From an uncultured Chlorobiota bacterium (lineage in GTDB: Bacteria; Bacteroidota; Kapaibacteriia; OLB7), in the NCBI GenBank assembly GCA_946481475.1, contig CAMLOB010000008.1, positions 1-22,428 on the forward strand: a DNA stretch of 22,428 nt, given 5' to 3'. Positions 3,338 through 21,302 of this stretch are shown piece by piece. Each line of letters starts with the position of its first letter. Position 1 is the stretch's first letter. A model generated the notes under the pieces. It made no database searches. It was given only the letters and a program-made list of their open reading frames with translations, and had not been told where the DNA came from. Made by a program: the position numbers and the translations under genes.

Positions 3338-3483
3338 AACTCCATGACTATCGTGAACCCTCACTATATAAATAATAGCACAAGTGGCCTGCATTCATCA
3401 CGGTTCCGAAAAAAAATCTTTGCGTGCGTGATGTTTCGCCGGTTGATGTGCTATGGAGGATAGAGGAAGGAGAGAAGAAACTC
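3338..3483. promoter_or_regulatory. Divergent intergenic region between T9SS cargo and sigma factor genes
   Basis: These 146 bp separate two divergent transcription units and must hold both promoters. The segment 3362-3380 is strikingly AT-rich (TATATAAATAATAG) in an otherwise GC-rich context, and an A8 run lies at 3411-3418. I could not fit a convincing Bacteroidota TTTG/TAnnTTTG promoter on either strand, so exact start sites are not called. Confidence 0.3.
3464..3472 (+). promoter_or_regulatory. Ribosome binding site that fixes the sigma-factor start
   Basis: AGGAAGGAG lies 11 nt before ATG 3484. A longer in-frame start (GTG at 3424) would include this purine tract as coding sequence and has no Shine-Dalgarno sequence of its own, so 3484 is preferred. 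Confidence 0.6.
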
Positions 3484-4983: not shown

Positions 4984-7098
4984 ATGAAGACAACGCGACA
5001 TATACTGCCCGGCACACTGCTGCTGGGTCTGCTGGGGACGATCACATTAACCGTAACGGCCCTGGCCCAGACGATCGGCTTTACAACACAGCCCTACGAC
5101 CCCGCAACGGCCACCGCAGCCTCCGGCGTTGCGGGAACAGCCTACAGCTACGACGCCGACGCCGAGGCAAGCCTCTCCGGCGGCATCAAATACTCTCTGC
5201 GCTACGGACCGAACGGCATGACCGTCAATCAGGGGACCGGACTGGTCTCCTGGACCCCTTCGCAGGCCGGGACATACCTTGCGGAGATCAAAGCCGAGCT
5301 TGCAAACAATCCGTCGGTCTCGGTCAATCAGTCGTGGGCGATTCTGGTGACCGAGTGCGATGGGGATGCCGTCATCGAAGGGACGGTAGTCGATCAGAAC
5401 GGAGATCCGGTGACAAGAGGCACGGTAACGGCACAGGTCGTCGGGACCACGCGATCCCCCTTGACCAAGGTAACCGCCGACGTTATCAACGGAGAGTACA
5501 GCATGACGGTCGACCGGGCGACCTACGTGCTGCGATTTGACGGGGATCAAATCACGACCAAATGGTATGATAACGCCTGGACATTTGCCGAATCGACTCC
5601 CGTCACCACAGTATGCAACGAAACCAGATCGGCAGACTTTCAGGTATATGACTACTCCAATCCCTCCTCCGGTCCAAAGGACATCACAATCTTCGGACGG
5701 GTTGTTGATTCGAGGACATCGTTGCCGGTAAAACACTGGCCGGCGGGACTATCCAGGGTTGAGGGGCATGCGATTCCACTCCGGGTTTGGGAATCGACCG
5801 ATGAACAGTGGCGCCTGCACTTTGCTCCGGCACCGGGGCAGGTGGATTTCACCGCTACAGTGGAAGGTCCGTATGCAGGAGAAAACTCCAGCAGTCTTTA
5901 CGAAGTTAAAGAACGGTTATCCGAATCCAGTGTCGTGTTTATAGATGCCGGGCACGTGTACGGGAACGACGGCTGGGAAGATGTGTACTCAAGGCAGTTC
6001 TACGACTTTGCCCCGAATTTTTTCGAAGCCTCTCCCATCAGGATCGAGAGCGATACTGTGCTGAGAGACATCAACTTCTTTGTCCACATGCCGATATATT
6101 CCGAACCGGCAAACAGCAGAAACGATACGTCATTCTCCCGCATTCTCTACTACACTCATTCGAATGTCAAACGGGATCCTCTGAATATCATCAACTCCGG
6201 TTTGAAAGGACGGGTGATGGGATCATTCTATGCGTTGCCTGATCCGGCAAGCGCCAGGACCCGAGTCGACATCACACGCTCGGTAGCGGCATTTCGCCGT
6301 GATTCAACAGAGTGGCTGCCGGTTACGGTAGGGGCAGGACGTTATCTCGGTTTCTTTATTCCCGAAGACACCAATTTTGTGCCGGGCTTTTATGTCAAGG
6401 GTGACAGCGCATCCCTGACCCCGTACGGCGCAACGGTACTCGATACCGACTCGGCAATCGGCACGATCCACATCATCTTCCGGCGTCGCGCGCACAGCTC
6501 CGGCACATCGGATATCCGCGGCAACATAGAGGGCATAACGAATGGAACCCGGGAGAAAGGTCATGCTCCGCAAGCGATTCGCCCTCTGACCGGCGCTTTC
6601 ATCTACGCTCTCGATTCAACCGGCCAGGTCGTTTCCTACACCTTCAGCAACGATGACGGAAGTTATGCTCTGAAGAACCTCGGTAAAGGAACCTATACGG
6701 TACACTCAAACAAGATGGGATATGACCTTTCCACTCCTCAGACTCTGGCACTCTCGGGTTCGGGAGAAATCGTCGAAGCGAGCTTCTCTCTGACAAACAA
6801 CACTCCGTCGAGTGTGCCTGAAGAAGGGACGGCATCCCGGGTCCGCCAGGTTGCCGCCACTGTTCATCCGAATCCGGCAAAGGACGAAATGTTTATCGAC
6901 TTTGAAGGTTTCGCAGGAACGGCACGTCTGCAAGTCATTTCCACGAAGGGAGAAGAGGTGATGGGGGAAAAGGTGGAAGTGGTGAACGGGGGGAACAGAA
7001 TCAGACTCGACGTCGGATCGCTGAGAAGCGGATCGTATGTGCTGACGATTACCGGCAATGAATTCCAGAGTACATCCCGTTTCACCATTACCAGATAG
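4984..7098 (+). CDS. T9SS-sorted secreted multidomain protein (Ig-like plus carboxypeptidase-regulatory-like domains)
   Basis: This 704-aa protein starts with a clear signal peptide (MKTTRH..., hydrophobic 11-27, cleavage after ALAQ at 29). Residues about 37-122 form a putative-Ig/cadherin-like module (GTAYSYDADA..., GMTVNQGTGLVSWTPSQAG, the He_PIG pattern). About 128-220 is a carboxypeptidase-regulatory-like domain (IEGTVVDQNGDPVTRGTV). A central part with no recognised family follows (about 230-505). A second CarboxypepD_reg/SdrD-B-like module lies at about 512-612 (DIRGNIEG..., NDDGSYALKNLGKGTYTVHSNKMGY). The C-terminal type A T9SS sorting domain starts near 625 (VHPNPAKDEMFIDF) and ends SGSYVLTITGNEFQSTSRFTITR. 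No enzyme motif is seen, so a structural or adhesive role is likely. It may be transcribed with the sigma/anti-sigma pair; a strong terminator follows. Confidence 0.88.
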   Translation: MKTTRHILPGTLLLGLLGTITLTVTALAQTIGFTTQPYDPATATAASGVAGTAYSYDADAEASLSGGIKYSLRYGPNGMTVNQGTGLVSWTPSQAGTYLAEIKAELANNPSVSVNQSWAILVTECDGDAVIEGTVVDQNGDPVTRGTVTAQVVGTTRSPLTKVTADVINGEYSMTVDRATYVLRFDGDQITTKWYDNAWTFAESTPVTTVCNETRSADFQVYDYSNPSSGPKDITIFGRVVDSRTSLPVKHWPAGLSRVEGHAIPLRVWESTDEQWRLHFAPAPGQVDFTATVEGPYAGENSSSLYEVKERLSESSVVFIDAGHVYGNDGWEDVYSRQFYDFAPNFFEASPIRIESDTVLRDINFFVHMPIYSEPANSRNDTSFSRILYYTHSNVKRDPLNIINSGLKGRVMGSFYALPDPASARTRVDITRSVAAFRRDSTEWLPVTVGAGRYLGFFIPEDTNFVPGFYVKGDSASLTPYGATVLDTDSAIGTIHIIFRRRAHSSGTSDIRGNIEGITNGTREKGHAPQAIRPLTGAFIYALDSTGQVVSYTFSNDDGSYALKNLGKGTYTVHSNKMGYDLSTPQTLALSGSGEIVEASFSLTNNTPSSVPEEGTASRVRQVAATVHPNPAKDEMFIDFEGFAGTARLQVISTKGEEVMGEKVEVVNGGNRIRLDVGSLRSGSYVLTITGNEFQSTSRFTITR

Positions 7099-7126: not shown

Positions 7127-7170
7127 ACAAGCCCGGAGATACCATCCATCTCCGGGCTTGTCGTTTTCTT
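7127..7170 (+). terminator. Intrinsic terminator after the 704-aa T9SS protein
   Basis: A perfect 14-bp inverted repeat (7127-7140 with 7148-7161, core CAAGCCCGGAGAT) encloses a 7-nt loop and is followed by CGTTTTCTT. It lies 29 bp after the stop at 7098. The T-rich tract is only on the plus strand, so it mainly ends plus-strand transcription, although the hairpin could also stall the convergent cassette from the right. Confidence 0.9.
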
Positions 7171-7203
7171 CAGCGATTGTCGCTGTCGCCGGGGGTAAAC
7201 ACC

Positions 7204-7223
7204 GGGCGCAAGGTTTTGCGCCC
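7204..7223. repeat. Short palindromic intergenic repeat (GGGCGCAA / TTGCGCCC)
   Basis: A perfect 8-bp inverted repeat (7204-7211 with 7216-7223) has a GGTT loop, flanked by CACC and CTACGG. It sits in the 174-bp gap between convergent genes. Its form matches the small 'GCGCAAGG..TTGCGCCCCTACG' palindromes that I recall as dispersed in intergenic DNA of several environmental bacteria. Only one copy is visible here, so the dispersed nature is inference. Confidence 0.55.
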
Positions 7224-7241
7224 CTACGGTTGCCTATGCAC

Positions 7242-7276
7242 CATTCGACATTCGTCAATCGCAAATCGACATTCAT
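7242..7276. repeat. Five degenerate 7-bp tandem repeats (CATTCGA type)
   Basis: Successive heptamers read CATTCGA, CATTCGT, CAATCGC, AAATCGA, CATTCAT. The array touches the stop codon (7273-7275) of the peptidase-like gene on the minus strand. The pattern resembles short tandemly repeated heptanucleotides known from some bacterial intergenic regions. Confidence 0.6.
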
Positions 7277-8883
7277 TCCCCCGCCTTCCCCTTCCGTTCG
7301 GCCCACTCCCCGGCACTGATCCCCATTCCCTCGGCAGGAATCAAGTCGACAGGTTCGGCAAGAAAGTTCCGATCGTTGTTGAGCGACAACTGCTCGTAGG
7401 TCAGTCGGGACGGATCGGAGGAAAGTCCCTGAACAGTCGCCCCTCCGTAGAGATCAACCGAAAGCCGGATCCCCTCTTCGCCTCCCGCCGGTATCTCCAC
7501 ACCTTCCAGTCGCCAGACCCGGTTTGTGGTGCCGGGCTGGATCGGGACGAGAAGTTCAATATCGACGGTGATCGGTTGCGAAGCGTTTTCCACGATGATC
7601 GTCGGCTCGGCTCCGCCGAGTCCGCTGTAGCGGAGCCGGGCCGAGACGTCCGGCTCGGCACACCACACGCGGACGTAGCCCCGGTTGTCTCCGGCAACGA
7701 TCTCCGCCTTCCCCTCGCCGGTGTGGAAGTCGACCGAGGCGGAATTCATCCGCCCCTTGTGGAAGTAGAGTTCGAACGGCCAGAGAACACCGTTCGGCGG
7801 GGCGGCCATCGGATAGAAGGGGACCATGGCCCGCATCCCGGTTGCCGAATCCCAATCGACTTTGTAGATGGAGGAATCGGCGAAGAGCCGTTTCTCTTCG
7901 GCATCGTGTACCTGCAGGATGCGTCCGCGCAACGCCCCTTCCCGGTTCATGATGAAGACCTTCGTCAGAAGCTGCGTCACCCCCAGTCCGAGCGAACTCG
8001 GCGTGCGGCTGGTCGGTCCGGCAATCGAGATCGGAAAGATCGTCAGGTTGCCGCTGCCGGGGGCCGGATTGCAGGTGACCGAGTCGACCTGATCGCACGG
8101 CCACGGAACGGCATCCCCGGCCATCAGGAAACTCCAGTGATGTCCGTCGACGTAGACATTGTTCGAGTCGGAAGTATACCATCCCCGATGGTTCGCACTC
8201 GTATCGGCCCAGATCCGGTTCGGATCGACGACCTTGATCCAGTACTTCCCTCCTCCTCTGTTCTCCACCGCATATCCGATGATCGCATGCCCTCCGCCGG
8301 TCGGCAGCACTCCTTTCGTCACGCTGACGATCACCGGTCCTTCGCGCGCAATGTCCTGCGTCGCCCGGTTGACCGCATAGGCGGCGTCAAAGGAATGACC
8401 GCCGTTGACCTGTTCGATCACGTGCTGGATAAAGGCCAGCGATATCTGATGTCCGTGCATGATATTGATCGCCCGGAGCAATCCCGGAGTCGTCGGCGCA
8501 CCGTTCATGTCGGTCTCGGTATACTGGATCGTCGGGGCGCAGAACCCCTTGTAGCCGCCGTAGTTGTTGATCATCAGACTCAGGATGCTCAACCCGAAAC
8601 AGTTCCCGGCTCCCCCTCCCGTCCCGGAAGGATCGGCCAGCGTCGTCTCGAAGGCAAGGTCGTAGAAGAGCTTGTCGAACGGCGCGGTGAACCAGCTTGT
8701 GTTCGAGTCGACCGGGATACCGTAGAAGGAAGTCCGGTAGATGTCCCACCCGAAACTGGGCGTTCCGAAATTCACAAAGCCCCAGCCGTACTTCTCGGCC
8801 GGATGTTCCTCCTGCCCCTTCGCCCCGACCGTCCAGAGGAACAGGCCGGAGAGAATCAACATGCCGTATCGTATCCGTTTCAT
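7273..8883 (-). CDS. Exported papain-like-fold cysteine peptidase-like protein
   Basis: A 536-aa protein with a signal peptide (MKRIRYGMLILSGLFLWTVGAKGQ, cleavage near 23). Residues about 85-225 carry the order expected of a papain-like catalytic core. Cys95 sits at a helix start (GAGNCFGLSILSLMINNYGG), His199 in a Gly-rich strand (TGGGHAIIGYAV), and Asp220/Asn222 in the next strand (YWIKVVDPNRIW), as in C1/C39-type peptidases and related transglutaminase-like folds. The C-terminal half (about 255-536) is beta-rich with no recognised family and no T9SS sorting sequence. It is last in a four-gene run after the Fn3 gene, 90 bp upstream. The start is supported by AGAGAG just before the ATG. The triad is a visible motif; activity is inferred. 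It could be a maturation protease for the large partner, a secreted effector, or a non-catalytic fold. Confidence 0.62.
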   Translation of the reverse strand: MKRIRYGMLILSGLFLWTVGAKGQEEHPAEKYGWGFVNFGTPSFGWDIYRTSFYGIPVDSNTSWFTAPFDKLFYDLAFETTLADPSGTGGGAGNCFGLSILSLMINNYGGYKGFCAPTIQYTETDMNGAPTTPGLLRAINIMHGHQISLAFIQHVIEQVNGGHSFDAAYAVNRATQDIAREGPVIVSVTKGVLPTGGGHAIIGYAVENRGGGKYWIKVVDPNRIWADTSANHRGWYTSDSNNVYVDGHHWSFLMAGDAVPWPCDQVDSVTCNPAPGSGNLTIFPISIAGPTSRTPSSLGLGVTQLLTKVFIMNREGALRGRILQVHDAEEKRLFADSSIYKVDWDSATGMRAMVPFYPMAAPPNGVLWPFELYFHKGRMNSASVDFHTGEGKAEIVAGDNRGYVRVWCAEPDVSARLRYSGLGGAEPTIIVENASQPITVDIELLVPIQPGTTNRVWRLEGVEIPAGGEEGIRLSVDLYGGATVQGLSSDPSRLTYEQLSLNNDRNFLAEPVDLIPAEGMGISAGEWAERKGKAGE

Positions 8884-8918
8884 GATCTCTCTTCAGTAGT
8901 AATTGATGTTCAACTTCC

Positions 8919-8959
8919 CGTTCACAACACGTGCCTTCACAAGGCTCACCTTCACAAGG
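8919..8959. repeat. Three-copy 15-bp tandem repeat between Fn3 and peptidase-like genes
   Basis: CCTTCACAAGG occurs at 8934-8944 and 8949-8959, with a degenerate third copy (CGTTCACAACA) at 8919-8929, all spaced exactly 15 bp. The period is a multiple of three and the minus-strand frame stays open between the Fn3 stop (8974-8976) and a second stop at 8893-8895, reading with LVKVS/LVKAR periodicity. Confidence 0.6.
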
Positions 8960-8973
8960 TTTGCGTTCGCAGC

Positions 8974-11529
8974 TCAGGGATGAACCCCGTGCTTCGGCGG
9001 AGAGAGCTGCGTCAGCGATCCGTCCTTCCTGAGCATCGTCACCCGGTACCAGTAGGTGGTGTTCCGCGCAACGGTGTTGTCGACGTAGGAGTTCCCCTCA
9101 ACGACGGTGCCGACCTGATAGTAATCCCCGCCGGCGCTCTTGCAACGGAAGAGGGCGAAGCCGACTGCCGAGTCGGAATCGAACGTCGGCGTCCACTCGA
9201 TCCGCAGAGCACACGGTCCGTCCTCCGGAACCACGGAGGTGATCTCCGGTCCCGGATCGCGGTTCGACTTGAAGGTAAACGTGCTGATGCCGACCGCACT
9301 GTCCGGCGGCGTCTCGTTCCCCTGCTGATCGACCCCCACCACCTTGTACCACCAGATGTCGCGCGGCTCCACACTGTCGACAATCCGTCCGGCACTCATC
9401 CAGTCGCGACTGACCAGAGGAATGGAATCGCACCCGACGACCGGCGGCGGCTTGTAGGGCTCGGTCAGGACGACACCGGTCCCCGGAGGGGGAACAACGG
9501 TCCGTCCCCCCACCCAGTCATACGGCCCGTTCTCATCCGTGCCCCGGTAGACGTGATAGGCGGCGATGTCCTGAACCGGCGGACCGATCCACTCGACGAT
9601 CACCGTGCTGTCGCGGGCAAGAAGTCCGCTGATGATCGCCGGACCGGGAGGATTCTTGTCCCGAAGCCGCTGGCAGACGATGATCTCTTTTGCCGGATCG
9701 GGAATCGGCATCACTCCACTCTCGTTCTGCGACTTGTCGACCGCCTTCACCAGATAGGCGTAGCAGATCGGCGATCCGGCCGGGACGGTCTCGTCATTGA
9801 ACCAGGCCTTGCCGTCCGCTTCTTTCCGTTCCTTCGCCTCCTGATGTGTGATCGTCCCGATCAACTCGAACGGACCGCCGCAATCGGGAAGGTTTTTCGG
9901 CACGTTCATCTTCGGGTCGTAGTGCGTCGTCGGATAGGTCGGCGTTCCGTCACGGTCGCCGAAGATCGCCACATACTGTTTGTAGAGATCAAGAGTGGCC
10001 TTGTCATATTCCCGCTCAAGACAGGGGAACCAGTCGCCGTAGTTGCAGTAGGCACGGTAGATGCGATACTCATCGATGTCGCAATCGGTGTTCAGATCCC
10101 ACCGCACCTGAATAAAATCATCGAAGCCTTCCGCCTCGGTCCCCTTCACATTGTCCGGACGGGTTGTGTCCTTCAACGCGTCGCCGACGGCAATCGAACG
10201 GTACGAGATGTTGTTGGAAGAGTCGACGGTCTCCACCCGGTAGTACCACGTCTTGTCGCCGCACGGACTCCGCAGTCCGGGCGAGGTGTCGAAGATCGTG
10301 ATCGTCGTGCTGGTATCTCCCGGCTGATTCACGATTCCCCCCACCGCCACGGCCCCGACGTTCGGATCTTCCGGGATCTCATACCGGTAGACCCGATACC
10401 CTCTGACCGCCTCGACGTGCCCCTCTTCGTCCAGCTCCACCCGGTTCCATCTGATCTGGAATCCGTTCATCGACTCGATCGCCGTCACGTTCAATCCCTG
10501 TGGTGTGCCGGGACGGGCACTGTCCTCGGGCGTTGCCGATACCGATCCGGACCACGATCCGGCATTGCCGAGCGGATCCTTGTGTCGCACCTGATAGTAG
10601 TATGTCGTCCCGTCGCGCGGACCGGCGACGTTCAGATCGGCTCCGGGAGGATTCGGGACCGGATGGGTCGTGGCTCCACCGGCTGAATCATATCGCTCGT
10701 AGTCGGTAAAACCGTGGCGCGCCGGGATGAGCGTGTCGAGATCGATTGTCGAGGAGATGTTCGCACTCACGTCGACATCACTCACCTTCGTCCAGGGTCC
10801 GGCCGGAGCCGTGGCGCGGCGGACATCGAACGACTGGAACTTGTTCGATGCCGGCATGTCCCACAGCACCTGCACTTTGGAATCTCCGGCAACCCCCTGC
10901 GCTCCGGAGGGAGTCGGGATCGCCCCCGGAGAACCGGCCTTGATCGAGGCTTCACTTTCGGGAAGCAGCTTCAATTCGGTTCCGCCCGAGTTCACCCGCA
11001 TTACCCGATAGGCATAGGTCTTGCCGCTGGAGACCGTATTGTCGGTCCAGCTCTGCCCCATCACCCGGGCCACGTCCGGTTCGTATCCGGCAAAGACCTG
11101 CACACGCCGCCACTTCATCGAACCGACCGGCAGGGACGTGATCCCGCAGACGTTCGCCAGAGGAGTAACCGGCGGAACGCCTCCGGTGCTGTCGGCCAGT
11201 CCGTAGGAGAGCATCGTCCAGAGATCGGAGCCGGAGGGAATGATCGTCTTGAACTGCGTGCAGTTGGTAATCGGTCCGATCGGCGTCCCGTTCAGCGGAG
11301 CCGCCGGCCAGGAGGCTTCGCTCGCCTCCTTGCGGTAGATGTTGTAGCGGACACCCGGCGTCACCGTGGCGGCCGACCACATCAGCAGGACTCTCGTCCC
11401 CCCGCTCGCTGTGGTAAAGAGTTCCAGCGTCTGTCCTTTCAGCGGAAGCATCCCCGCCATGATCGTCATGATGAGGAGAACCCCTCCGGAAATCCCGTAT
11501 CGCATGATGTTCCCTGTGATGCTGTTCAT
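8974..11529 (-). CDS. Exported protein made of tandem fibronectin type III-like domains
   Basis: An 851-aa protein with a signal peptide (hydrophobic about 14-29, cleavage near PLKGQ) and then almost only Fn3-like modules: about 33-190 (two divergent halves), 200-335, 340-452, 457-610, 625-752 and 757-848. Recurring signatures are the Trp strand (VQVLWDMP, QIRWNRVE, VRWDLNTD, VIVEWIGP, RIEWTPTF) and the YxVYR/YRIYR strand. The module at 457-610 has a Cys-rich insert (CNYGDWFPCLE...). No enzyme domain, lipobox or T9SS sorting domain is visible; the protein ends LSPPKHGVHP. The start has a strong Shine-Dalgarno overlapping the stop of the upstream giant gene, so the two are translationally coupled. 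Likely role: an extended surface or periplasmic scaffold that binds the TANFOR-like partner or a glycan. That role is inferred from the fold and the context. Confidence 0.85.
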   Translation of the reverse strand: MNSITGNIMRYGISGGVLLIMTIMAGMLPLKGQTLELFTTASGGTRVLLMWSAATVTPGVRYNIYRKEASEASWPAAPLNGTPIGPITNCTQFKTIIPSGSDLWTMLSYGLADSTGGVPPVTPLANVCGITSLPVGSMKWRRVQVFAGYEPDVARVMGQSWTDNTVSSGKTYAYRVMRVNSGGTELKLLPESEASIKAGSPGAIPTPSGAQGVAGDSKVQVLWDMPASNKFQSFDVRRATAPAGPWTKVSDVDVSANISSTIDLDTLIPARHGFTDYERYDSAGGATTHPVPNPPGADLNVAGPRDGTTYYYQVRHKDPLGNAGSWSGSVSATPEDSARPGTPQGLNVTAIESMNGFQIRWNRVELDEEGHVEAVRGYRVYRYEIPEDPNVGAVAVGGIVNQPGDTSTTITIFDTSPGLRSPCGDKTWYYRVETVDSSNNISYRSIAVGDALKDTTRPDNVKGTEAEGFDDFIQVRWDLNTDCDIDEYRIYRAYCNYGDWFPCLEREYDKATLDLYKQYVAIFGDRDGTPTYPTTHYDPKMNVPKNLPDCGGPFELIGTITHQEAKERKEADGKAWFNDETVPAGSPICYAYLVKAVDKSQNESGVMPIPDPAKEIIVCQRLRDKNPPGPAIISGLLARDSTVIVEWIGPPVQDIAAYHVYRGTDENGPYDWVGGRTVVPPPGTGVVLTEPYKPPPVVGCDSIPLVSRDWMSAGRIVDSVEPRDIWWYKVVGVDQQGNETPPDSAVGISTFTFKSNRDPGPEITSVVPEDGPCALRIEWTPTFDSDSAVGFALFRCKSAGGDYYQVGTVVEGNSYVDNTVARNTTYWYRVTMLRKDGSLTQLSPPKHGVHP

Positions 11530-11536
11530 TGCTCTT

Positions 11537-11545
11537 CTCCTCCTC
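11537..11545 (-). promoter_or_regulatory. Shine-Dalgarno of the Fn3 gene overlapping the upstream stop codon
   Basis: On the minus strand GAGGAGGAG precedes ATG 11529 by 7 nt and overlaps the TGA (11546-11544) of the giant protein gene. This fixes the Fn3 start and implies coupled translation. It is among the strongest Shine-Dalgarno sequences in the window. Confidence 0.75.
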
Positions 11546-14500
11546 AGTACAGATAGAATCCGTCATCCTTGTTGAATCCGGCGTGGACCGAGACCGATCC
11601 GCAGAAGACCCAGAGGACACAGGCTTCAAGCCCGAGAGAGCCTTCGAATGCCGGAGGGATCGCCGCAATCATCTGCAGGTTCCCCCACGCCGCCGCACTG
11701 ACGAGTCCGCCGAGGATCTTCCCCCAGACGTAGATGCCGAAATTGCCGATCACCCCTCCGGACGGCACGTCACTGATCGAGGGGGCAAAGGCGCCGACGC
11801 CGACATACATCTGATAGCCGCCGGAGACGATAAAGAGATCGACACCCTGACTGATCCCGAGATAGGCGTAGAAGCCGGTCAGCCGGTCGGGGAGTCCCCC
11901 CTTGTTCAATCCGAACCGACCGTTGATGCCGTCCATCACCCACGCCTTGTTCTTCGGAGCGTTGATCCCGAGATAGACGCCGGTCTCCAGCGTCGTCCCG
12001 CCGCCGACGGTGATGCCGAGTCCGCCGACCATGCCGTACATCGAAACGCCGACCCGTCCCTGGATCGACTGATAGTCCAGTCCGGCATGCCAACTGAACT
12101 CGCCGAATCCGGAGATGCCGGCATTCGCCCCGGCGACGATCGGAACGCCGACCACCGCACCGAGCGAGACGGTCCCCTTGAAATATCCCTCGGCATATCC
12201 CTCCCCCCAATCGACCGTGAAGTGGGTCAGACCGAAGACGTCGACGTCGCTTCCGCCGACGTTGATGAACATCTGACCGTTCGCATAGAATGTCAGCCGG
12301 TCGGGTCGGTAGCTGAAGACAAGGCTGACCGCGTCGCCGCTCCGGGCTTGTAGAATAGTGGAGGTTGCCGAGTGGGAGAGCTGACCGCCGAGCGCAATCT
12401 GCTTCAGCGATCCGTCCTCGATACAACCGCATCCCCATATCTCTGCAATCCGTCCCATGCTTCCGATCGGCCCGACGTCAAATCCGTGCTGCGACGTCTC
12501 GATCACGCGGAAGCAGGAACTGGTGGAACTCATCCTGAGGAAGGCGTTCATGTCGCCGTCGTCGATGCTGAGAAGCGCCACATCTCCCGGTCCGACAAAT
12601 CCGTCCTGACTGACCGTATCGTAGAGCATGTCGAATGCCAGATCGGCCAGCCCCGACGCCCAGGAACGCTCCCAGTGAAGGTCGCTCGTCCCGGCCCCCA
12701 TGTGCGGGCTTCCAAGGACGCGAACGAAGCGCCCGAAGTAGGGCGTGTCCGGCATCGCCGAACGATAGTCGGAGATCGACATCATCTTTGCGCCGAAGAA
12801 GGGGATCGAGAGGGAACCGTAGGTCTGAAGGTAGCCCGAGTCTGCCGGGTTCGCCGGATCGAACGGCGAGAGGGCGACGAACTCGGTCGTATAACCGAAA
12901 TCGTCGAACCGTTGACCGACGTTGTTGTAGTCGAAGAAGAGTCTTCCGAAATTCCCGGAGGCCTCCATCTCACCCCAGACGAGCCAGAAAGGTTCGTCGA
13001 AGTGAACACGTTCGGCCATGCCTGCGGCGGTCAGGTAGATCACCCCCTGCTTCACCGCCATGATGCCGGCCGATTTGCTCGTGTCTTTCGGCGTCATCTC
13101 CAGTCCCCAGTAATCGAGCGTGTCGTCTCCGGCAAAGTGGACGTTCCCTCCGGCATTGTTCGCCGTCGAGGTGAACATCATCTGCTCGAAAAGAACCGGC
13201 ATACCGATCGGTCCGCCGAGCAGAGCCGCGCCGGAGAGAGCGCTGTTCCAGACCGCACTCTCCACAAACTGCAGGCGCATCCCTCCGATCTTATCCGGGT
13301 TGTAGGTCGTATGCGTCGGATTTATCGGCAGACTTCCACCCCCGACGACGCCGAAAACGATTCTGAACGGAGTACTGTCGGCCTGATAGTAACCGGCCCA
13401 GGTCGGTCCGACTTCAAGTTCTCCCGGTTTGTCCTTGTTCGGACGGAGAATCAGCTCGGTGTGGACCCCCTGCGCTCCGACGTTCATCCAGACCCCGGCA
13501 ATGATATCCCGCTCGAACTTGATGGCTCCGTTCGGATCGGGAATATCTTTTGTGAAGATGGTGAAATCCCGGTCGCGAAGATTGGGAAAGGTCACGCCTC
13601 CCATCCCCTGTGCCTCAAGATTCGTTTCCGGCATTCCGAGGAACGGCGTCTTGTAGGCCGTGTCGAGCACCGGGAAGAATGCCTTGTTCTCCCAGAACGA
13701 CGCCAGATAGAAGGCCCCGCTGTCCTGACTCACCGAGAGCGAGTAGAAGTGAGTGTTCGCCGGGTGCTTCGCCTTCTCTCCCCAGACCAGACCGTCATCC
13801 ACCTCCACCCGTCCGAAGAGGTCCATATCCTTCTGCACGAAGAGGCGTTCAAACCTGGTGACGACCACACCTCCGCCGGTACTTCTGGTCACCCCTTTCT
13901 CCGGCAGCCATATCTCTCCGTTCTTGAACTCTCCGGAATCGATTGCGCTTGCGGCAAGCTCAAGTTTTCCGTTCGGCAGGTAGATACGATAGCCGTAGGG
14001 ATCCAGAGCGGTGAACGTCAGCAACTCGGTCAGCGTCAGCACTCCGGCAAATCCGTCGCCGGCAATCGTCCCGTTCGTAAACGCATACTCTCCCTTTACG
14101 TAGCCCCGGTTCGATATCACATCGCCGACCGCCGCTGGAGTTTCTCCGTCACGCAACACCACCCCCTTCCAGATATTTCCCTGTGCCGGGACGACGCCTC
14201 CGGCCGATTTCGTCGAGGAGAAATCGATGACGTAGCCGGTCCCGAAGATCTCCAGACCGGTCTCGCCGATCGCCCAACGACCGAAGGCCGAGTCGTTGGA
14301 CTCGATATAGAACTCGCAGTAGGGGGTAATCTTCGTCTCCGGCACCGGAAGCGTCGCGTAGGTGCAGGTATCGGAGCTGATGATCGACGGAGGGAGAAGC
14401 AGATTCCCCTCGACCCGGGCTTCCCCCGGCTCGATCGTCAGCGAATCGATATCGAGCGAGAAGCCGTTCTTCAGATCGAGTCGGGCCGGAGGGGTCGGGA

Positions 14501-16514
14501 TCGGGGCCGGACTCGGGTAGACGGCAATCCCCTCGGTCAGCGTCACTTTCGGCTGCACCGGTCCGTCCCAGGCCACATCCCGGAAGGCGACGCGAATGCC
14601 GTCCGGAGACTTCTTGCCGAAGAGATCGAGGACGAGATTCCGGTCGATCACCAGTTCGTTCCGCAGTCGGGCTTCGGAGATGACCTCGGTCCTGCCGCCG
14701 CTGATCGTGATGGTTTCATCCTTGTCGATCGTCGCCGATCTGTCCGGCATCAGCAACGTCATGTAGTCGCCGACGCGTGCCGAGCCTTCGATGGTCCGGG
14801 CCTCCATCAACGAGAACTCCTTTGCCGAATCGGCAACGAAATCGACGACGCCGAAATCGTAGGGCTTCAGCTTCAGATCGCCCGGTCCCCAGGGGATCGG
14901 CGTGAAGATCGTCGGTCCGGCATCGCAGTTGAACTTGATCCGGCCGATACCGCTCGGCTTGCTCGCATCTTCCGATTTCGAGGAAGCATCCCACTCCTCC
15001 ACAACAATCTCGAACCCGGCCGCCACCAGCGTATCGGGTCGGTTCGGTATGCCGAGTTTGTCGGGCAGTTTCCCGAACGGACTGACCGCCTGGTCGAAGT
15101 TGCAGACGGTTCCGTCGGCTCTGATCTCCTCTCCGTTAAAGTCGAGCGTCACTCTCCACCGGTAGGTCTTCCCCCGCTCGGGCGTGAAGGTCAGTCGCGA
15201 TCCTTTCCGGTTGATGAAATTCAGATCGAGAAGGGAGAGATTGCCGGTCTTCGTATGCCGCAAATCGCCCGGACCGTGTCCGGAGAACGTCCCTTCAAAG
15301 GCCGTTCGCTTCTTCCGTTCATCAAACCGGACAGCACCGAGCTTCGATTCCTCTTCCCATATCTCGATCTTCCCTCCGGTGATCGCCTCCGGGTTGATCG
15401 CCGGCTGCACTTCTACCTGGAACCAGGGGGCGGAACTCCCTGCGACACCCTTTGCAAGCTTCGGAGAAAGCGTGATGCAGGCCGGAACGATAATGTCTTC
15501 GAGAGAACGGAGATCTCTGACCCGAATCCCTTCCTGACCATAGATCAACGGGGTTCTCCCCTTCCCGGTATCCAGTCTGATCCCGTCGGTCCCGATACCG
15601 ATGCCGATACCGTCTCCACCTCCGATCAGCGGAACGACTTCACCGAAGACGAACGAACAGACTTCGCTGTATCCGTCGTTCCGGAACGTGACGCCGTTGG
15701 TCGGGTCGATCGCCCGCACACGCCAGGCATACTGCTGTCCGATGCGCAGCGGAGGTTCGGCCGGACCGTAGGAGAGGATCGGAGCGTTCAGTTGACGCGA
15801 GAAAAAGATGGGAGAAGTCTTCGCCAGCAACGCATCGTTCGGATCGATTCCCTTCGGCACCTCGGCCATCTCGAACAGATACTGCATGTTCCCCGGTCCA
15901 CCGGCCGGCACACTCCACTGAAACGTGAGGAGCTGCGGCTTCAACTCCCTGACGGTGGTTCCGCAGGCCGGCAGGAGAGGACGGGGAGATTCGGCAAAGC
16001 GGATCACGAAGGTGGCGCAGCCGCTCGGCTCCTGCGGTGAAAGGGGGACAAGCGTCGTGAACTCCAGCGCACGGACGCAGATCCGGTAGGAACCTTCCGG
16101 CAGCCGCTTCGTCCGGGCCACCGTGTTCTTTTCCGTTCCGATAAACTCCACGGCATCGGCCGAGAACAACTGCAGGTCACGAAGATTCAGGTTCACCGTC
16201 GCATTCGGTCCGACGGTGATCCGGTTGCGCGGGAAATTATCCTTGGTGACGATGCGGACACCTCCGTTCAGGTTCTCGGCAAATCCGCTGAGCCGCACCT
16301 GATGGGTCTCGGCCGATCTGTTGGTCAACCGGATCAGCACCTTGTCCGGATTCGATTCCCAGATCGTCAGGTCCGGCGAGTAGGGAGGAAGCGCCGTCAC
16401 GGTCACGGTGATCGGCTCTCCCTGTGCAAGGAGCAGACCGCTCATCAGCGGAAACAGAAGGAGTCCGGACCAGACCATCCTTCTCCACTTTCCTCTATGC
16501 AGATCGTGTATCAT
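11544..16514 (-). CDS. Giant exported TANFOR-like surface protein
   Basis: A 1656-aa protein with a signal peptide (hydrophobic about 14-29, cleavage near LLAQ). Residues about 33-175 (ITVTVTALPPYSPDLTIWES..., LPEGSYRICVRALEF) match my memory of the TANFOR-domain region of Bacteroidota surface proteins. An Fn3-like module with an AWRVRAID strand follows (about 180-290), then a Gly-Ile repeat (GIGIGIGTDGIRL, 302-313). The core (about 330-1400) is long and beta-rich with no family I can name. The last ~255 residues are Gly/aromatic-rich alternating strands (VGVSMYGMVGGLGITVGGG) ending in FYLY, which look like outer-membrane barrel strands with a terminal aromatic. No PNPA-type T9SS domain is present. 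It follows the barrel gene by 72 bp and is coupled to the Fn3 gene. ATG 16478 is an alternative start (GGAG 4 nt upstream), but 16514 supplies the basic n-region. The domain name rests on recall, not a search. Confidence 0.75.
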   Translation of the reverse strand: MIHDLHRGKWRRMVWSGLLLFPLMSGLLLAQGEPITVTVTALPPYSPDLTIWESNPDKVLIRLTNRSAETHQVRLSGFAENLNGGVRIVTKDNFPRNRITVGPNATVNLNLRDLQLFSADAVEFIGTEKNTVARTKRLPEGSYRICVRALEFTTLVPLSPQEPSGCATFVIRFAESPRPLLPACGTTVRELKPQLLTFQWSVPAGGPGNMQYLFEMAEVPKGIDPNDALLAKTSPIFFSRQLNAPILSYGPAEPPLRIGQQYAWRVRAIDPTNGVTFRNDGYSEVCSFVFGEVVPLIGGGDGIGIGIGTDGIRLDTGKGRTPLIYGQEGIRVRDLRSLEDIIVPACITLSPKLAKGVAGSSAPWFQVEVQPAINPEAITGGKIEIWEEESKLGAVRFDERKKRTAFEGTFSGHGPGDLRHTKTGNLSLLDLNFINRKGSRLTFTPERGKTYRWRVTLDFNGEEIRADGTVCNFDQAVSPFGKLPDKLGIPNRPDTLVAAGFEIVVEEWDASSKSEDASKPSGIGRIKFNCDAGPTIFTPIPWGPGDLKLKPYDFGVVDFVADSAKEFSLMEARTIEGSARVGDYMTLLMPDRSATIDKDETITISGGRTEVISEARLRNELVIDRNLVLDLFGKKSPDGIRVAFRDVAWDGPVQPKVTLTEGIAVYPSPAPIPTPPARLDLKNGFSLDIDSLTIEPGEARVEGNLLLPPSIISSDTCTYATLPVPETKITPYCEFYIESNDSAFGRWAIGETGLEIFGTGYVIDFSSTKSAGGVVPAQGNIWKGVVLRDGETPAAVGDVISNRGYVKGEYAFTNGTIAGDGFAGVLTLTELLTFTALDPYGYRIYLPNGKLELAASAIDSGEFKNGEIWLPEKGVTRSTGGGVVVTRFERLFVQKDMDLFGRVEVDDGLVWGEKAKHPANTHFYSLSVSQDSGAFYLASFWENKAFFPVLDTAYKTPFLGMPETNLEAQGMGGVTFPNLRDRDFTIFTKDIPDPNGAIKFERDIIAGVWMNVGAQGVHTELILRPNKDKPGELEVGPTWAGYYQADSTPFRIVFGVVGGGSLPINPTHTTYNPDKIGGMRLQFVESAVWNSALSGAALLGGPIGMPVLFEQMMFTSTANNAGGNVHFAGDDTLDYWGLEMTPKDTSKSAGIMAVKQGVIYLTAAGMAERVHFDEPFWLVWGEMEASGNFGRLFFDYNNVGQRFDDFGYTTEFVALSPFDPANPADSGYLQTYGSLSIPFFGAKMMSISDYRSAMPDTPYFGRFVRVLGSPHMGAGTSDLHWERSWASGLADLAFDMLYDTVSQDGFVGPGDVALLSIDDGDMNAFLRMSSTSSCFRVIETSQHGFDVGPIGSMGRIAEIWGCGCIEDGSLKQIALGGQLSHSATSTILQARSGDAVSLVFSYRPDRLTFYANGQMFINVGGSDVDVFGLTHFTVDWGEGYAEGYFKGTVSLGAVVGVPIVAGANAGISGFGEFSWHAGLDYQSIQGRVGVSMYGMVGGLGITVGGGTTLETGVYLGINAPKNKAWVMDGINGRFGLNKGGLPDRLTGFYAYLGISQGVDLFIVSGGYQMYVGVGAFAPSISDVPSGGVIGNFGIYVWGKILGGLVSAAAWGNLQMIAAIPPAFEGSLGLEACVLWVFCGSVSVHAGFNKDDGFYLY

Positions 16515-16586
16515 GGTTCATGCCTGTTGGCTGTTGTTTCTGTTCAATCGGCATGGCGTTTGAATTTATCTTCGGTCGGTTCGACG

Positions 16587-18329
16587 TTACGGCCGTTCCG
16601 CTTTCTCTCCCACCCTCAGCGAAAAGCTCCGGCTGTATGCCAGCACACCGGTCAACTCGTTGAAATCGGAATTCAGGGAGAGGTCTCCGCTACTCTGGGT
16701 GGCATAGAGTGTGAAAGTAATCAGGTCGGCATCGCTCAACCGGTAGGAAGCGTTCAGGTTCTCGTTCAGCACATCGGCCCCGGTCTCGACCCCGTTGAAC
16801 TCCTGCATCGTCCGGGTATAACCGACCGAGGCGCCGATCGAAAGAGCGCTCCCGAACAATCCGGCCGATCCGTTGATCGCCCCCCCCACCGATCTGGTCA
16901 CCACCTCTCCGGTGGTCGTCTCGGAATAGAGAAGCGAAGCCCCGGTCGACAGAGGGTTCTCGACAAAGGCAAGGTTGTAGATCAGGTTGCCGGTCAGCGA
17001 ACGGCTGTCGGCAAGCTCTCCGGTGAAGGCGTTCTTGTCGGTGTAGTCCTGGATGTTTCCGACGACCGTGATGAAGTGATTGGTCCTCTCTCCGGCAAAG
17101 AGGAATCGGGGAGCAAGGGAGGCGGACTGTGAGACGTTCCGGACGGCGATCGTGTCGTTGACCGGCTGGCGCCCGGCCGCCTGGGCGGTGGAGTAGTTCA
17201 GATAGCTCGCATCGATTCCGAACACCTGATTCGGATCCCATCCGACCAGAGCCGAACCGATCACCCGGTTGGTCTGCGCAAGTTTCGTTTCCAGCAGGTT
17301 ATCCCGTTCCAGACCGATCGACCCGCCGACCCGCAGTCGCTGTTCGAACAGGGTGAAGGAGGGTTCGAAGGTGAAGCGTTCCACATCGGTTGTGAAGTAG
17401 TAGGCTCCGAGCGATTCGTATTCCGGTTCGATCCGCTCGTAGCCGAGACGGGCGGAGAAGTTGTCGCTCGTGTAACGCAGCCCCATCTTCGCGGCCACCG
17501 TCAGCGTCGTCGAGTTGCGGATCGTCTGGATCTCGTTGGCAACCTCCGGGATATCGGTGGTGTCGGAAGGAGCCGATCGAATGTCCCGCGTCAGAATGCT
17601 GGCCGCCCCTTCGCTCTCAAAGCGCAGCCGGTTCGGCAGAATATCGAACTCGACGGTGAGGCCGGCCACGGTGTTCTCCTGCGGGCGGACGTCGGCCGTC
17701 GTCGGCGGAACGCTCAGCGACGTCGAATCGTCCCGGGCATGGAACCAGCTCAGGCCGATCTCCGAACCTCCCCCTTCATAGGCGATCTTCGCACCGTATC
17801 CCCAGCGTTCATAGGCCGGGAGGACGAACTCCTCGGTCGTATCCTCTTCCACCGCACGCTGGAACCGACCGTACATTCCCATCAGGCGAAACGGTCCCGG
17901 CGTCAACTCAAGTCCTCCCCCGAGAAACGTCGTCCCGCCGAGCGTATAGTCCGAGAAATTGAGTGCACGGTAGCCGAGGTGGAGTCTTGCCCACTTGTAG
18001 CCGGGGGAGAGGCCGATTCGGTTGAAGGGCTGGCGGAAATCCCGCTCCTGTTCGCTGAGGATAAAATCGATCGGGATGTCGATCTCGTAGACCGAGGCAT
18101 CGAGGGCGCCGTTGACAAGCCAGGAGAAGGGTTCGCGCCGCTGGTCGATGCCGTCGGCCGAATAGCCGATCAGGGAAGCACCGACCGAACCGTACAGCGT
18201 CAATGGCGGCACGCTTCCGATACTGTCCAGATCCTGGGAAACAAGAGAGTCGAGCGGCAGACAGAACAGGACGGCCGCAAGAACAACGAAGGCTGTTTTC
18301 CCACACACGATCATGAGGTTTATCCCCAT
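16587..18329 (-). CDS. Outer-membrane beta-barrel protein, first gene of the surface cassette
   Basis: A 580-aa protein with a signal peptide (hydrophobic about 12-29, cleavage near LVSQ). From about residue 43 to the C-terminus it is built of alternating amphipathic strands separated by short acidic turns (TLYGSVGASLIGYSAD, ARLHLGYRALNFSDY, GSEIGLSWFHARDDS, FSARLGYERIEPEYES, RVGGSIGLERDN, ALSIGASVGYTRTM), which is the hallmark of a large outer-membrane barrel. There is no plug or TonB box, so it is not a classical TonB receptor. The terminal strand (YSRSFSLRVGEKAERP) lacks a final aromatic. A weak Bacteroidota-type promoter lies upstream, and the giant, Fn3 and peptidase-like genes follow on the same strand. 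ATG 18314 is an alternative start. It could be a pore, anchor or export channel for the downstream proteins; this is inferred. Confidence 0.8.
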   Translation of the reverse strand: MGINLMIVCGKTAFVVLAAVLFCLPLDSLVSQDLDSIGSVPPLTLYGSVGASLIGYSADGIDQRREPFSWLVNGALDASVYEIDIPIDFILSEQERDFRQPFNRIGLSPGYKWARLHLGYRALNFSDYTLGGTTFLGGGLELTPGPFRLMGMYGRFQRAVEEDTTEEFVLPAYERWGYGAKIAYEGGGSEIGLSWFHARDDSTSLSVPPTTADVRPQENTVAGLTVEFDILPNRLRFESEGAASILTRDIRSAPSDTTDIPEVANEIQTIRNSTTLTVAAKMGLRYTSDNFSARLGYERIEPEYESLGAYYFTTDVERFTFEPSFTLFEQRLRVGGSIGLERDNLLETKLAQTNRVIGSALVGWDPNQVFGIDASYLNYSTAQAAGRQPVNDTIAVRNVSQSASLAPRFLFAGERTNHFITVVGNIQDYTDKNAFTGELADSRSLTGNLIYNLAFVENPLSTGASLLYSETTTGEVVTRSVGGAINGSAGLFGSALSIGASVGYTRTMQEFNGVETGADVLNENLNASYRLSDADLITFTLYATQSSGDLSLNSDFNELTGVLAYSRSFSLRVGEKAERP

Positions 18330-18371
18330 TGTGACTTAGACAAGGTCTCGTGGTGGGCGTGGAGTCGGTTA

Positions 18372-18402
18372 CGAAAGTACGGAAGGGGAAACGGAAATCC
18401 AA
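18372..18402 (-). promoter_or_regulatory. Possible Bacteroidota-type promoter for the four-gene cassette
   Basis: On the minus strand TTGG (18402-18399), 19 bp, then TACTTTCG (18379-18372) approximates the Bacteroidota TTTG / TAnnTTTG promoter, about 43 bp before ATG 18329. Two positions deviate. The upstream DUF2254 gene ends at 18418 with no terminator hairpin, so read-through is also possible. Confidence 0.33.
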
Positions 18403-18417
18403 CAGGTAAGGAAAATT

Positions 18418-19779
18418 TCATTCCGGCTTCGGAAATCTTTTCTCGATCCCACGCCGACATTCGGCCAGCCTGTTCCGCCCCAATTCGGTCGGCAGGCGAT
18501 CCCTGCAGGCCTCCAGCAGTTTATCCCCTTCGGCACGCAGCAGTTCCTGAGTTTCGGATGAGGAAGTCGCCTCTGCAAGATCGGCCAGCAACTCCATCAT
18601 TTTCATCGCCGTCTGCTCGGAGGATGCGACGGTCGTGCGAAGTCGGTCGAACGTATGGTGAAGAAGACGGCGAAGCGTCATGGCCGGAGCGATCACCCGA
18701 AGCCGTCCCTCCCTGTCGTACCGGAACTTCCCGGGAAATTCCACGGATGTGGCAGCTACCAGACCGGCACCGATCCATTCCAGACAGGTGAGGGCGGTAA
18801 AGGGATCGTTGATTCCGGGCGAAAGGGCAATCGTGGCAATCTCCACCAACTCGTCCACAAGAAAGACCATATCCTGCGTCGGCGTTCGTTGCGGTCCGAG
18901 CACGAAACAATCCCGAAGCCTGTTCATCAGTTCCGTCGTCATGCTTGTGGAACAATGGATGTGAAGGGGGACGGAGTGGTCGTGCACAAACTCTCCGGGA
19001 CGGTAGTTGATGCGAAGACAAAGATTGCCGGAGCAGGCAATCTCCATCATCTGTTCTTCATTGATCCGCACAATATAACCGCAGTGTTCAAGGGAGAGCG
19101 GAGCATACCTTCCCTCGGCAAACTTCACCATCTCCTCAGTCTCCCCCTGTTCTTCTCCTCTGCCCGGTCCAAAGCGTTCCGGAGCGATGGTCCTGACCTT
19201 CTCCCGCAATTCCCCGCCGATCCGGGCAATGACATTGGAGATATGCAGACTCTCGGAGACGTGATGAATGAAGTAGATAAGCACTCCGATGCTTGAGAGG
19301 GCCAGCAGAATGCCGACCAGCAGTGAGAAGTGGGGAACAAAAGGGGCGACACCCCCCTCGACCGGATCCGTTGCAGGTGTCCCGTCACCCGTGCGGACCG
19401 TCCGGAGAATCAACAGACAATAGATGAACGTGGAGATGAAGACGCCGAGTGTCATCTGGTTACCCCGGTCGCGCATGAAGTTGGTAAGGATACGGGGTCC
19501 GTATCGTCCGGCGACATTCATCACCGAAACGATGGTGATCGAGAAGGTCACACCGGCCACGGTCACCATGGAACCGGCAATCGTGGAGAGAACCGCCCGC
19601 GCCCCTTCCGGCTTGTTGGCGAACAGCCAGGGAAGATCTTCTATCCACTTTGTACCGAACGCCGAATCGGCAGCAATCGTCAGGATCGACAGAAGAATTG
19701 CGCCGAATGCCGTCAGCGTCGGCACAAACCAGTAACTTGAACGAAGATGTTCCAGCCAGGAGAAGAACAGTGATCGCAT
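18418..19779 (-). CDS. DUF2254 family integral membrane protein
   Basis: A 453-aa protein that begins MRSLFFSWLEHLRSSYWFVP, the usual start of DUF2254 proteins. Four transmembrane helices lie at about 17-38, 63-88, 109-127 and 151-172. Between helices 2 and 3 is the family signature FSITIVSVMNVAGRYGPRILTNFMRDRGNQ (in shortened form FS..IVS....RYGPR.L.NFMRDR). The C-terminal ~270 residues form the conserved soluble domain, including the SPGINDPFTA segment. The function of the family is unknown. The frame is open further upstream to 20175, but that would run into the divergent dehydrogenase gene and adds a non-conserved, Arg/Pro-rich stretch, so I chose ATG 19779. A GTG at 19893 with AAGGAAAG upstream is an alternative. 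It is divergent from the dehydrogenase gene and not clearly linked to the cassette downstream. Confidence 0.88.
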   Translation of the reverse strand: MRSLFFSWLEHLRSSYWFVPTLTAFGAILLSILTIAADSAFGTKWIEDLPWLFANKPEGARAVLSTIAGSMVTVAGVTFSITIVSVMNVAGRYGPRILTNFMRDRGNQMTLGVFISTFIYCLLILRTVRTGDGTPATDPVEGGVAPFVPHFSLLVGILLALSSIGVLIYFIHHVSESLHISNVIARIGGELREKVRTIAPERFGPGRGEEQGETEEMVKFAEGRYAPLSLEHCGYIVRINEEQMMEIACSGNLCLRINYRPGEFVHDHSVPLHIHCSTSMTTELMNRLRDCFVLGPQRTPTQDMVFLVDELVEIATIALSPGINDPFTALTCLEWIGAGLVAATSVEFPGKFRYDREGRLRVIAPAMTLRRLLHHTFDRLRTTVASSEQTAMKMMELLADLAEATSSSETQELLRAEGDKLLEACRDRLPTELGRNRLAECRRGIEKRFPKPE

Positions 19780-19913
19780 AGCTGCTATAACATACCCCCT
19801 GAAGATAGGTTCCCCGGCAGCTCTCTCCTCCCCTTCTTCCGGATTTCTCCCCCGTACAAAATTCTCCGTAGATTGCGCCTTCCGATAGATCACATCTCTT
19901 TCCTTGATCGCAC

Positions 19914-21302
19914 ATGCACACAATCCGATCCACGTTCCTGACGGTATGGTTGCTGTCGCTCGGGCTGTTCTGTCCGGCATGCGGCGACGACCCCCGCACT
20001 CTTCCCGATCCTTCGGACTCGGCAAACGAGACTCCATCGGGGACTCAGCATCAGAAGGAAGAGAAGGAGGAAAAAACGGAAGCCGAGGACGCAACGCTCC
20101 CCTCTCCCGAATCGACCGCCCCGTTAAAACTGACCCCCCGCACCATCCGGCTTGTCGAGCAACCGTATCTGGCAAAGGCGACCGAGTTCACGTTGAATGT
20201 GCCGGAAGGCTTCGAGATCGCCGTGGCGTCCGAAGGGATGCGGCGCGTTCGGTTCATGGCGATGAGTCCCGACCACCGGTTGTTCCTGACCGACATGTAC
20301 GATCTGTCGGACAACAGAAAGGGGAAGATTTACGTGCTCGACGGCTTCGACATCGCCACACGACGATTCAAATCGCGAACCGCATATCTCGACCGTCTGC
20401 GCAATCCGAACAATGTGGCCTTCCACACCGATGCAAAGGGAGAAACCTGGCTCTACACCGCCGTCACCGATGCACTTCTGCGTTATCGCTACAACGACGG
20501 CGATCTCCACCCCGAAGAGGAACCGGACACGCTGACCACATTTCCGGATTACGGCAAGAGCTATCGCGAAGGGGGATGGCATCTTACCCGCACGGTCATC
20601 GTCGGCGGGAACGGCAAGCTGTATGTCTCGGTCGGAAGCAGTTGCAACGTTTGTGAAGAGAAGGAAGAGGTCCGCGCATCGATTCTTGAGATGAACCCGG
20701 ACGGAAGCGATCTGAAGATCTACGCGCGAGGTCTGCGCAACGCCGTGGGTCTGCGGTGGGTGGCAGGATCGCTCTGGGCAACGAACATGGGGGCCGATCA
20801 CCTCGGTCTGGACAAACCGGAAGACAACGTTTATCGGATCATTCCGGGGGGGAATTACGGCTGGCCCTACACCTACGAATATCGCGGGAAGATCTATGCC
20901 GATCCGGTCTACGAATCCGAACAGAAGGCCGTACTCCCCGAAAATGTCGACACCTCCTGGGTCGGTCTGCCGGCCCACTCCGCCCCTCTCGGCTTCGACT
21001 GGTTTGGCGATGCAAGGGACAAGCGATTGAAGAACACATTCCTCGTTGCTCTGCACGGATCGGGAAACGTCGCGATGAAACGAGGTTACAGCATCGTTCG
21101 CCTTGGCGGCGGCCGGTTGCTTGGAGATTTCATCAACGGCTTCCTCAAGGAGGGGATGCGCTACGGCAGACCGTGCGATATTTTTCGCGTCGGGGAGAAC
21201 ACCTTCTTCTTCACCGACGATCACGCCGGACTGCTCTACTTTGTCTATCGTGGAGAGGACGGTCGGGAGAGAATCCGGGACGTGTCGTTCCGAGGGGAAT
21301 AA
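19914..21302 (+). CDS. Exported PQQ-type sugar/sorbosone dehydrogenase-like beta-propeller
   Basis: A 462-aa protein with an N-terminal export signal (residues 1-23, LTVWLLSLGLFCPAC). Cys23 could be lipidated, but Pro at -2 makes the lipobox imperfect. A low-complexity Glu/Lys/Ser linker (about 30-70) leads to a six-bladed propeller at about 85-450. Signatures of the soluble glucose/L-sorbosone dehydrogenase family are visible. They include 'VPEGFEIAVAS', 'NPNNVAFH', the His223 region with SVGSSCNVCEE (240-249), 'GLRNAVGLRW' (273-282), 'NYGWPYTYEYRGKIY' (314-328), 'SAPLGFDWF' and 'LHGSGN' (380-384). It probably oxidises a sugar or sugar lactone-forming substrate in the periplasm using PQQ; the substrate is unknown. 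No PQQ biosynthesis gene is in the window. The ATG has no Shine-Dalgarno. It is divergent from DUF2254, and mobA follows after 77 bp. Confidence 0.87.
   Translation: MHTIRSTFLTVWLLSLGLFCPACGDDPRTLPDPSDSANETPSGTQHQKEEKEEKTEAEDATLPSPESTAPLKLTPRTIRLVEQPYLAKATEFTLNVPEGFEIAVASEGMRRVRFMAMSPDHRLFLTDMYDLSDNRKGKIYVLDGFDIATRRFKSRTAYLDRLRNPNNVAFHTDAKGETWLYTAVTDALLRYRYNDGDLHPEEEPDTLTTFPDYGKSYREGGWHLTRTVIVGGNGKLYVSVGSSCNVCEEKEEVRASILEMNPDGSDLKIYARGLRNAVGLRWVAGSLWATNMGADHLGLDKPEDNVYRIIPGGNYGWPYTYEYRGKIYADPVYESEQKAVLPENVDTSWVGLPAHSAPLGFDWFGDARDKRLKNTFLVALHGSGNVAMKRGYSIVRLGGGRLLGDFINGFLKEGMRYGRPCDIFRVGENTFFFTDDHAGLLYFVYRGEDGRERIRDVSFRGE

Follow-up and report, generated by a model that had tools for sequence, protein, structure and literature searches.

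A conserved C core-B-A gene unit and a separable pair of TANFOR-like region and candidate barrel gene in an uncultured Chlorobiota bacterium

Contig CAMLOB010000008.1 of an uncultured Chlorobiota bacterium (assembly GCA_946481475.1) was analysed over positions 1 to 22,428 (22,428 nucleotides (nt), GC content 58.6%; the window), which hold four minus-strand open frames lying head to tail in the order D, C, B, A. Two gene units meet in these frames. The core of the giant protein C, together with B and A, forms one conserved gene unit, and the TANFOR-like N-terminus of C together with D forms a second, separable unit; the window has both, joined in C. An earlier sequence-only reading had described four consecutive genes for exported proteins that look designed to work together. 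The four frames are indeed consecutive, with intergenic gaps of 72 nt (D-C), 14 nt (C-B) and 90 nt (B-A), and a simple hydrophobicity rule assigns each a hydrophobic leader at its start, in agreement with export of all four products. The boundary given then, 18402, lies beyond the ATG of D (18329). The genes and their parts are as follows.

D, 18329-16587 (16587..18329), minus strand: 580 aa, exported, of putative outer-membrane barrel type; family accompanying TANFOR-like genes
C, 16514-11544 (11544..16514), minus strand: giant exported protein of 1656 aa
C residues 35-291, 15642..16412, minus strand: TANFOR-like and Fn3-like N-terminal region, also found in TANFOR polymorphic toxins
C residues 486-1656, 11547..15059, minus strand: conserved core, present also in relatives without the TANFOR region
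C residues 1351-1656, 11547..12464, minus strand: barrel-like C-terminal part, located by transfer from residues 863-1160 of the modelled L006 homolog
B, 11529-8974 (8974..11529), minus strand: exported Fn3-type chain of 851 aa
A, 8883-7273 (7273..8883), minus strand: exported papain-like protein of 536 aa, putative enzyme domain plus beta-rich C-terminal part
Cys95 codon of A, 8599..8601, minus strand: proposed nucleophile, Cys in 79/79 sequences with a letter there, at the start of helix 95-108 (model)
His199 codon of A, 8287..8289, minus strand: proposed catalytic residue, His in 80/80, at the start of strand 198-210 (model)
Asp220 codon of A, 8224..8226, minus strand: proposed catalytic residue, Asp in 80/80, after strand 213-219 (model)

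A scan of a genome collection with the C alignment gave 20 loci (L001-L020). In all 20, B comes after C on the same strand, including L019, where only the last 113 residues of C are present, and L015 and L017, where C is divided between two frames. The next gene is A in 15 of the 15 loci in which the contig continues (those of L003, L005, L013, L015 and L020 end inside B), with A of L012 and L017 recovered by six-frame search. The same C-B-A order occurs in an additional genome, G227 (L041). The record titles of the 20 loci name Chlorobiota, Kapaibacterium, Bacteroidota, Ignavibacteriae, Omnitrophota, KSB1, UBP1, Armatimonadetes and a Desulfobacteraceae metagenome-assembled genome (MAG); such organism names are those of MAG records, in which misbinning is possible. 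A is present in 16 of 16 core genomes searched (G004 has an additional fragment of 90 aa) and in none of 24 others, although 15 of these contain TANFOR-like genes. It also stands beside cores without any TANFOR region. The C core-B-A unit is widespread but rare: among 296 sampled genomes of the phylum of G001, with at most two candidates scored per genome, 46 match the C profile, 3 of them with the core and 43 with the N-terminal region only, and 2 of 14 genomes have A in the phylum of G007, which is represented by only these 14 genomes and whose Omnitrophota label may be outdated. Among the genes flanking the core loci, 3 loci is the most in which any one family was seen; L010 and L018 have their whole neighbourhood in common.

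D lies outside this widely conserved unit. A comparison of gene order across related genomes, the check proposed with the sequence-only reading, found C, B and A kept together, whereas D adjoins the core only in the window itself and, of the 20 loci, in L001, with little or no sequence upstream of C in L003, L005, L017 and L019. The four-gene set was accordingly rejected as a conserved unit, and the claim that the genes belong together is supported for C-B-A as conserved order and not for D. The closest named relative of C, with 85% identity, comes from an Ignavibacteria MAG, and further relatives carry the names Kapabacteria, Bacteroidota and Ignavibacteriota. Seven C relatives and D relatives lie on contigs of matching sizes (180273, 91255, 27022, 25617, 19170, 13165 and 7225), which suggests the four-gene arrangement in close relatives. 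Cores without a detected TANFOR region have no adjacent D. The TANFOR-bearing cores without an adjacent D are L002, L004 and L041; D is found elsewhere in G004 and G227, and not in G002.

Relatives of D are found directly before other TANFOR-like genes, including ones with a different body. This pairing was counted in 79 genomes, 59 chosen for the core or TANFOR and 20 not. Of 77 D genes, 66 lie within 15 kb of a TANFOR-like region against about 1.6 expected for 4-Mb genomes and an even spread, a count that is no blind sample, the D and A5 profiles having been built from TANFOR-locus genes. Sixty-five of the 66 share the strand of the TANFOR-like region and 40 are directly upstream within 2 kb. 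The 77 are rows with E <1e-50, minus one second gene piece (G255), with weaker rows excluded. Seen in reverse, a D gene lies within 15 kb of 73 of the 96 TANFOR-like rows, while the other 23 have none at that distance. These rows reach down to about 1e-20 and were typed manually; G019:C228, G255:C1:1247280, G011:C1 and six pieces repeating a single G001 gene were excluded, which cannot reduce the D count. The A5 profile took the place of TIGR02542, which matched 11 of 79 genomes and was not sensitive enough to mark genomes. A less selected test used the 20 genomes without a C-profile match: strong D genes occur in three of them, and strong TANFOR matches in these same three.

Nineteen extended TANFOR-like loci without the core (L042-L060) show the same association, with D in 16 and absent from L050, L053 and L059; the genome of L050, G029, has a D gene about 15 kb from the TANFOR region. 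An Fn3-type gene matching the B profile is present in 10 of the 19, in the order D-giant-Fn3 in L042, L043, L044, L048 and L056, and these matches may reflect just a shared domain type. Several of these loci have features of their own. L045, L051, L058 and L060 encode short TANFOR-like proteins (about 930-1015 aa) with, by reading, an RCC1-repeat-like end, and D is downstream rather than upstream. L059 (G001:C107, in the genome of L001) encodes a second TANFOR-like giant of 3660 aa, with no D or B in the stretch fetched; G001 has 15 TANFOR-profile rows in all, several being pieces of one gene. L050 (G029:C46) has a TANFOR-like frame of about 3,900-4,050 aa with one internal TAG. At L047, a single 903-aa protein combines a TANFOR region (residues 23-274) with the candidate barrel (338-900), and G159, G286 and G255, in which TANFOR and D matches lie close together in same-length frames, are read as further probable fusions. 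The N-terminus of an outer-membrane barrel usually faces the periplasm; if that of D does so, an L047-type fusion would place the TANFOR domain there or in the mouth of the barrel. A hydrophobic leader is present in 18 of 18 D-family proteins examined, and the family consensus ends in Y...F. D, earlier assigned as an outer-membrane barrel, is on this evidence a candidate barrel; it matches no Pfam or NCBIfam family.

The N-terminal domain of C is termed TANFOR-like since TIGR02542 matches residues 35-151 significantly (32.2 bits, E 8.8e-8) and below its curated cut-off of 67. The C-terminus is conserved across 26 and 49 aligned relatives. The earlier description of C as a giant with a barrel-like C-terminus is supported by the model of the L006 homolog. 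Foldseek matched the C core in 13 rows at E<=0.001 to LptD, apolipoprotein B, a Tc-complex chain, an S-layer protein, an usher and a porin, all with a TM-score of 0.17 or less, so the search is taken to show a barrel-like end and no more. The start of C in L010 and L018 (and L012) reads as helical rather than TANFOR, which means that the N-terminus of the core is swapped between lineages. Remote kinship to the core, as judged by profile comparison, is likely for one group of TANFOR giants without it, L042, L043, L047, L048, L052 and L059 (probability 79.7; 4.8 for the reversed control and at most 0.3 for five shuffles). Other TANFOR groups reach at most 14.0, and the idea that TANFOR giants generally have the core was rejected on this difference.

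Proteins B and A had been read as an extended Fn3 scaffold and a possible cysteine protease. Window B reaches no Pfam family cut-off, fn3 included; among seven B relatives at core loci, that of L001 exceeds the fn3 cut-off (33.5 bits, cut-off 25) and those of L007 and L014 exceed the Ig_RIMBP2 cut-off. One weak PHROGs tail-fibre match of B is put down to Fn3-type domains. A has its invariant Cys, His and Asp in the papain order with the matching order of secondary structure elements. No PDB row was returned by Foldseek at E<=0.001. The two best VIA rows, both weak, are effector proteins. Sequence searches of the PDB with A, C, D and TANFOR profiles gave no credible relative.

The genes were also said to be partly translationally coupled. 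No frames overlap, and what is left of this claim is the C-B junction, where the stop codon of C merges into a Shine-Dalgarno-like stretch upstream of the ATG of B. This and two features outside the four genes are the following.

11537..11545, minus strand: Shine-Dalgarno-like stretch GAGGAGGAG, between the stop of C and the ATG of B
7127..7161, plus strand: hairpin of 14 pairs with a T-rich tail, between the convergent ends of A and 4984-7098 (plus strand); probable terminator
18418-20175 (open frame), minus strand: DUF2254 membrane-protein gene, same strand, 88 nt before D

Since the DUF2254 match begins at residue 145 of its frame, the gene probably starts further inside that frame. Given its strand and distance from D, the transcript may begin at this gene, which may be the first of the operon. 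The terminator scan listed 11 sites against 13.2 in shuffles, the stem at 7127..7161 being the longest; neither promoter-like nor terminator-like sites in the window exceed the shuffle level. PADLOC, Rfam and tRNA scans of the window returned nothing. Frames 3424-4092, 4117-4887 and 4984-7098 (plus strand) form a consecutive row; by reading alone, the first two resemble a sigma factor and its anti-sigma factor. The last, convergent with A, encodes cargo of the type IX secretion system (T9SS). Two long plus-strand open frames, 7177-10686 (1169 aa, opposite A and B) and 12372-16040 (1222 aa, opposite C), are most likely a by-product of GC-rich codon use.

The arrangement can be explained by a two-unit surface complex of the outer membrane in which C is the scaffold, B an arm, A the enzyme and D the TANFOR partner, a reading held at about even chance. 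A, B, C and D would enter the periplasm via signal peptides and belong to one complex. C would insert its barrel-like C-terminal part in the outer membrane and display a long all-beta body, to which B would be bound as an Fn3-type arm. A would act as a papain-like cysteine enzyme on the scaffold or from it, and may mature C or B or cut or join other surface proteins. D would receive or anchor the TANFOR end at the outer membrane, as PorP/SprF does for T9SS type B cargo. At least in genomes without T9SS, the core proteins would arrive at their site independently of that system. A wider version, more tentative and somewhat short of an even chance, is that the TANFOR-like domain is an N-terminal outer-membrane address with D as dedicated barrel, a counterpart of the pairing of the C-terminal sorting domain (CTD) with PorP/SprF, and that other lineages put other N-termini on the same T9SS-independent C core-B-A surface complex, with its built-in cysteine enzyme, in several phyla.

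The sequence-only reading had suggested a separate export route, the neighbours carrying T9SS sorting domains that the four genes lack. One neighbour, 4984-7098 (plus strand), has such a domain (Pfam 48.2 bits, cut-off 27), and 1592-3394 (minus strand) is borderline, just under both cut-offs (Pfam 26.0 bits, cut-off 27; NCBIfam 22.9, cut-off 23); A-D have no type A or type B domain at E<=0.1. It is nevertheless conceivable, if unlikely, that all four depend on T9SS, C being exported by way of SprA despite having no C-terminal sorting domain and D serving as shuttle or anchor. T9SS cargo adjoins the genes of the window, the authors of PMC7073777 suggest T9SS export of TANFOR proteins, and the TANFOR-D unit is seen only in genomes with a SprA match, neither TANFOR nor strong D matches being found in the eight SprA-negative genomes searched. 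SprA is present in 59 of the 64 genomes examined, however, which makes this co-occurrence a weak test. For the core the evidence differs. SprA (TIGR04189) is matched in 16 of the 20 locus genomes, 13 over cut-off, and not in G007, G008, G014 or G020, which also lack any Por_Secre_tail match against at least 150 each in G001, G010 and G012. C core-B-A therefore do not seem to need T9SS in these four genomes. The G007 contig looks native, since relatives of one of its genes, 61-62% identical, occur in three further genomes of its phylum, G008 included. This check covers the G007 contig, and incomplete or mixed MAGs are the remaining doubt. Support for a separate route is thus confined to C core-B-A and does not extend to D and the TANFOR end.

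In 2020, TANFOR proteins were put forward as a class of polymorphic toxins whose export route was unproven, in several cases with the toxin encoded by the next gene (PMC7073777), so that C could deliver a toxin, A, encoded two genes downstream. C shares its leader and its TANFOR-like/Fn3-like N-terminal region with these toxins (TIGR02542); the window also has an Fn3 gene and T9SS cargo close by, two kinds of gene for which Table 1 of that source shows enrichment around TANFOR genes, and the VIA rows for A are effectors. This reading is nonetheless improbable: C scores under the TIGR02542 cut-off and ends in a conserved barrel-like part, not a variable toxin; no toxin family was found in C, B or A; no common immunity gene or recurrent flanking gene was seen; and A, with its invariant triad, accompanies every core genome searched, also where TANFOR is missing. 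C is therefore not filed as a TANFOR polymorphic toxin. Similarly improbable is a set of independent exported genes that share a transcript and do different jobs. D is separable from A, B and C, and interaction of the products is deduced from the genes, but the order is kept in 20/20 and 15/15 loci of differently named lineages and A is absent from the 24 genomes without the core.

The proposed two-unit surface complex resembles known systems in part. As with PorP/SprF and type B CTD cargo (PMC9143113, PMC12618676), a barrel gene, here the candidate D, lies beside the gene of a giant surface partner; D pairs instead with an N-terminal domain and is mostly upstream, not downstream. The NCBIfam matches of 16 D proteins at E<=1 include no PorP/SprF model. 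The NCBIfam library contains one. D may work like the PorP/SprF barrels, judging by gene pairing and fusion, and yet fall outside the models of that family. A shares with papain-like enzymes (AvrPphB/C58, AvrRpt2/C70, Tse1; weak rows) a Cys at a helix start, a His at a strand start and an Asp after the next strand, but differs from them in having no significant sequence or fold match, a beta-rich C-terminal part and the fixed companions B and C. The main text of PMC7073777 does not contain the words barrel, porin, papain or cysteine, nor does that of PMC10994853, which describes the SprA translocon, contain TANFOR. In the literature listings searched, neither a D-TANFOR pairing nor a T9SS-free C core-B-A unit appeared, and of the papers listed for TANFOR only PMC7073777 treats the domain at length.

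The D-type candidate barrel offers a concrete partner for the unproven export of TANFOR proteins, since its gene stands beside most TANFOR-like genes counted and in a few cases is fused with the domain. As the C core-B-A unit demonstrates, giant surface proteins of such a kind occur also where no T9SS was found, and the two dependencies can therefore be tested apart.

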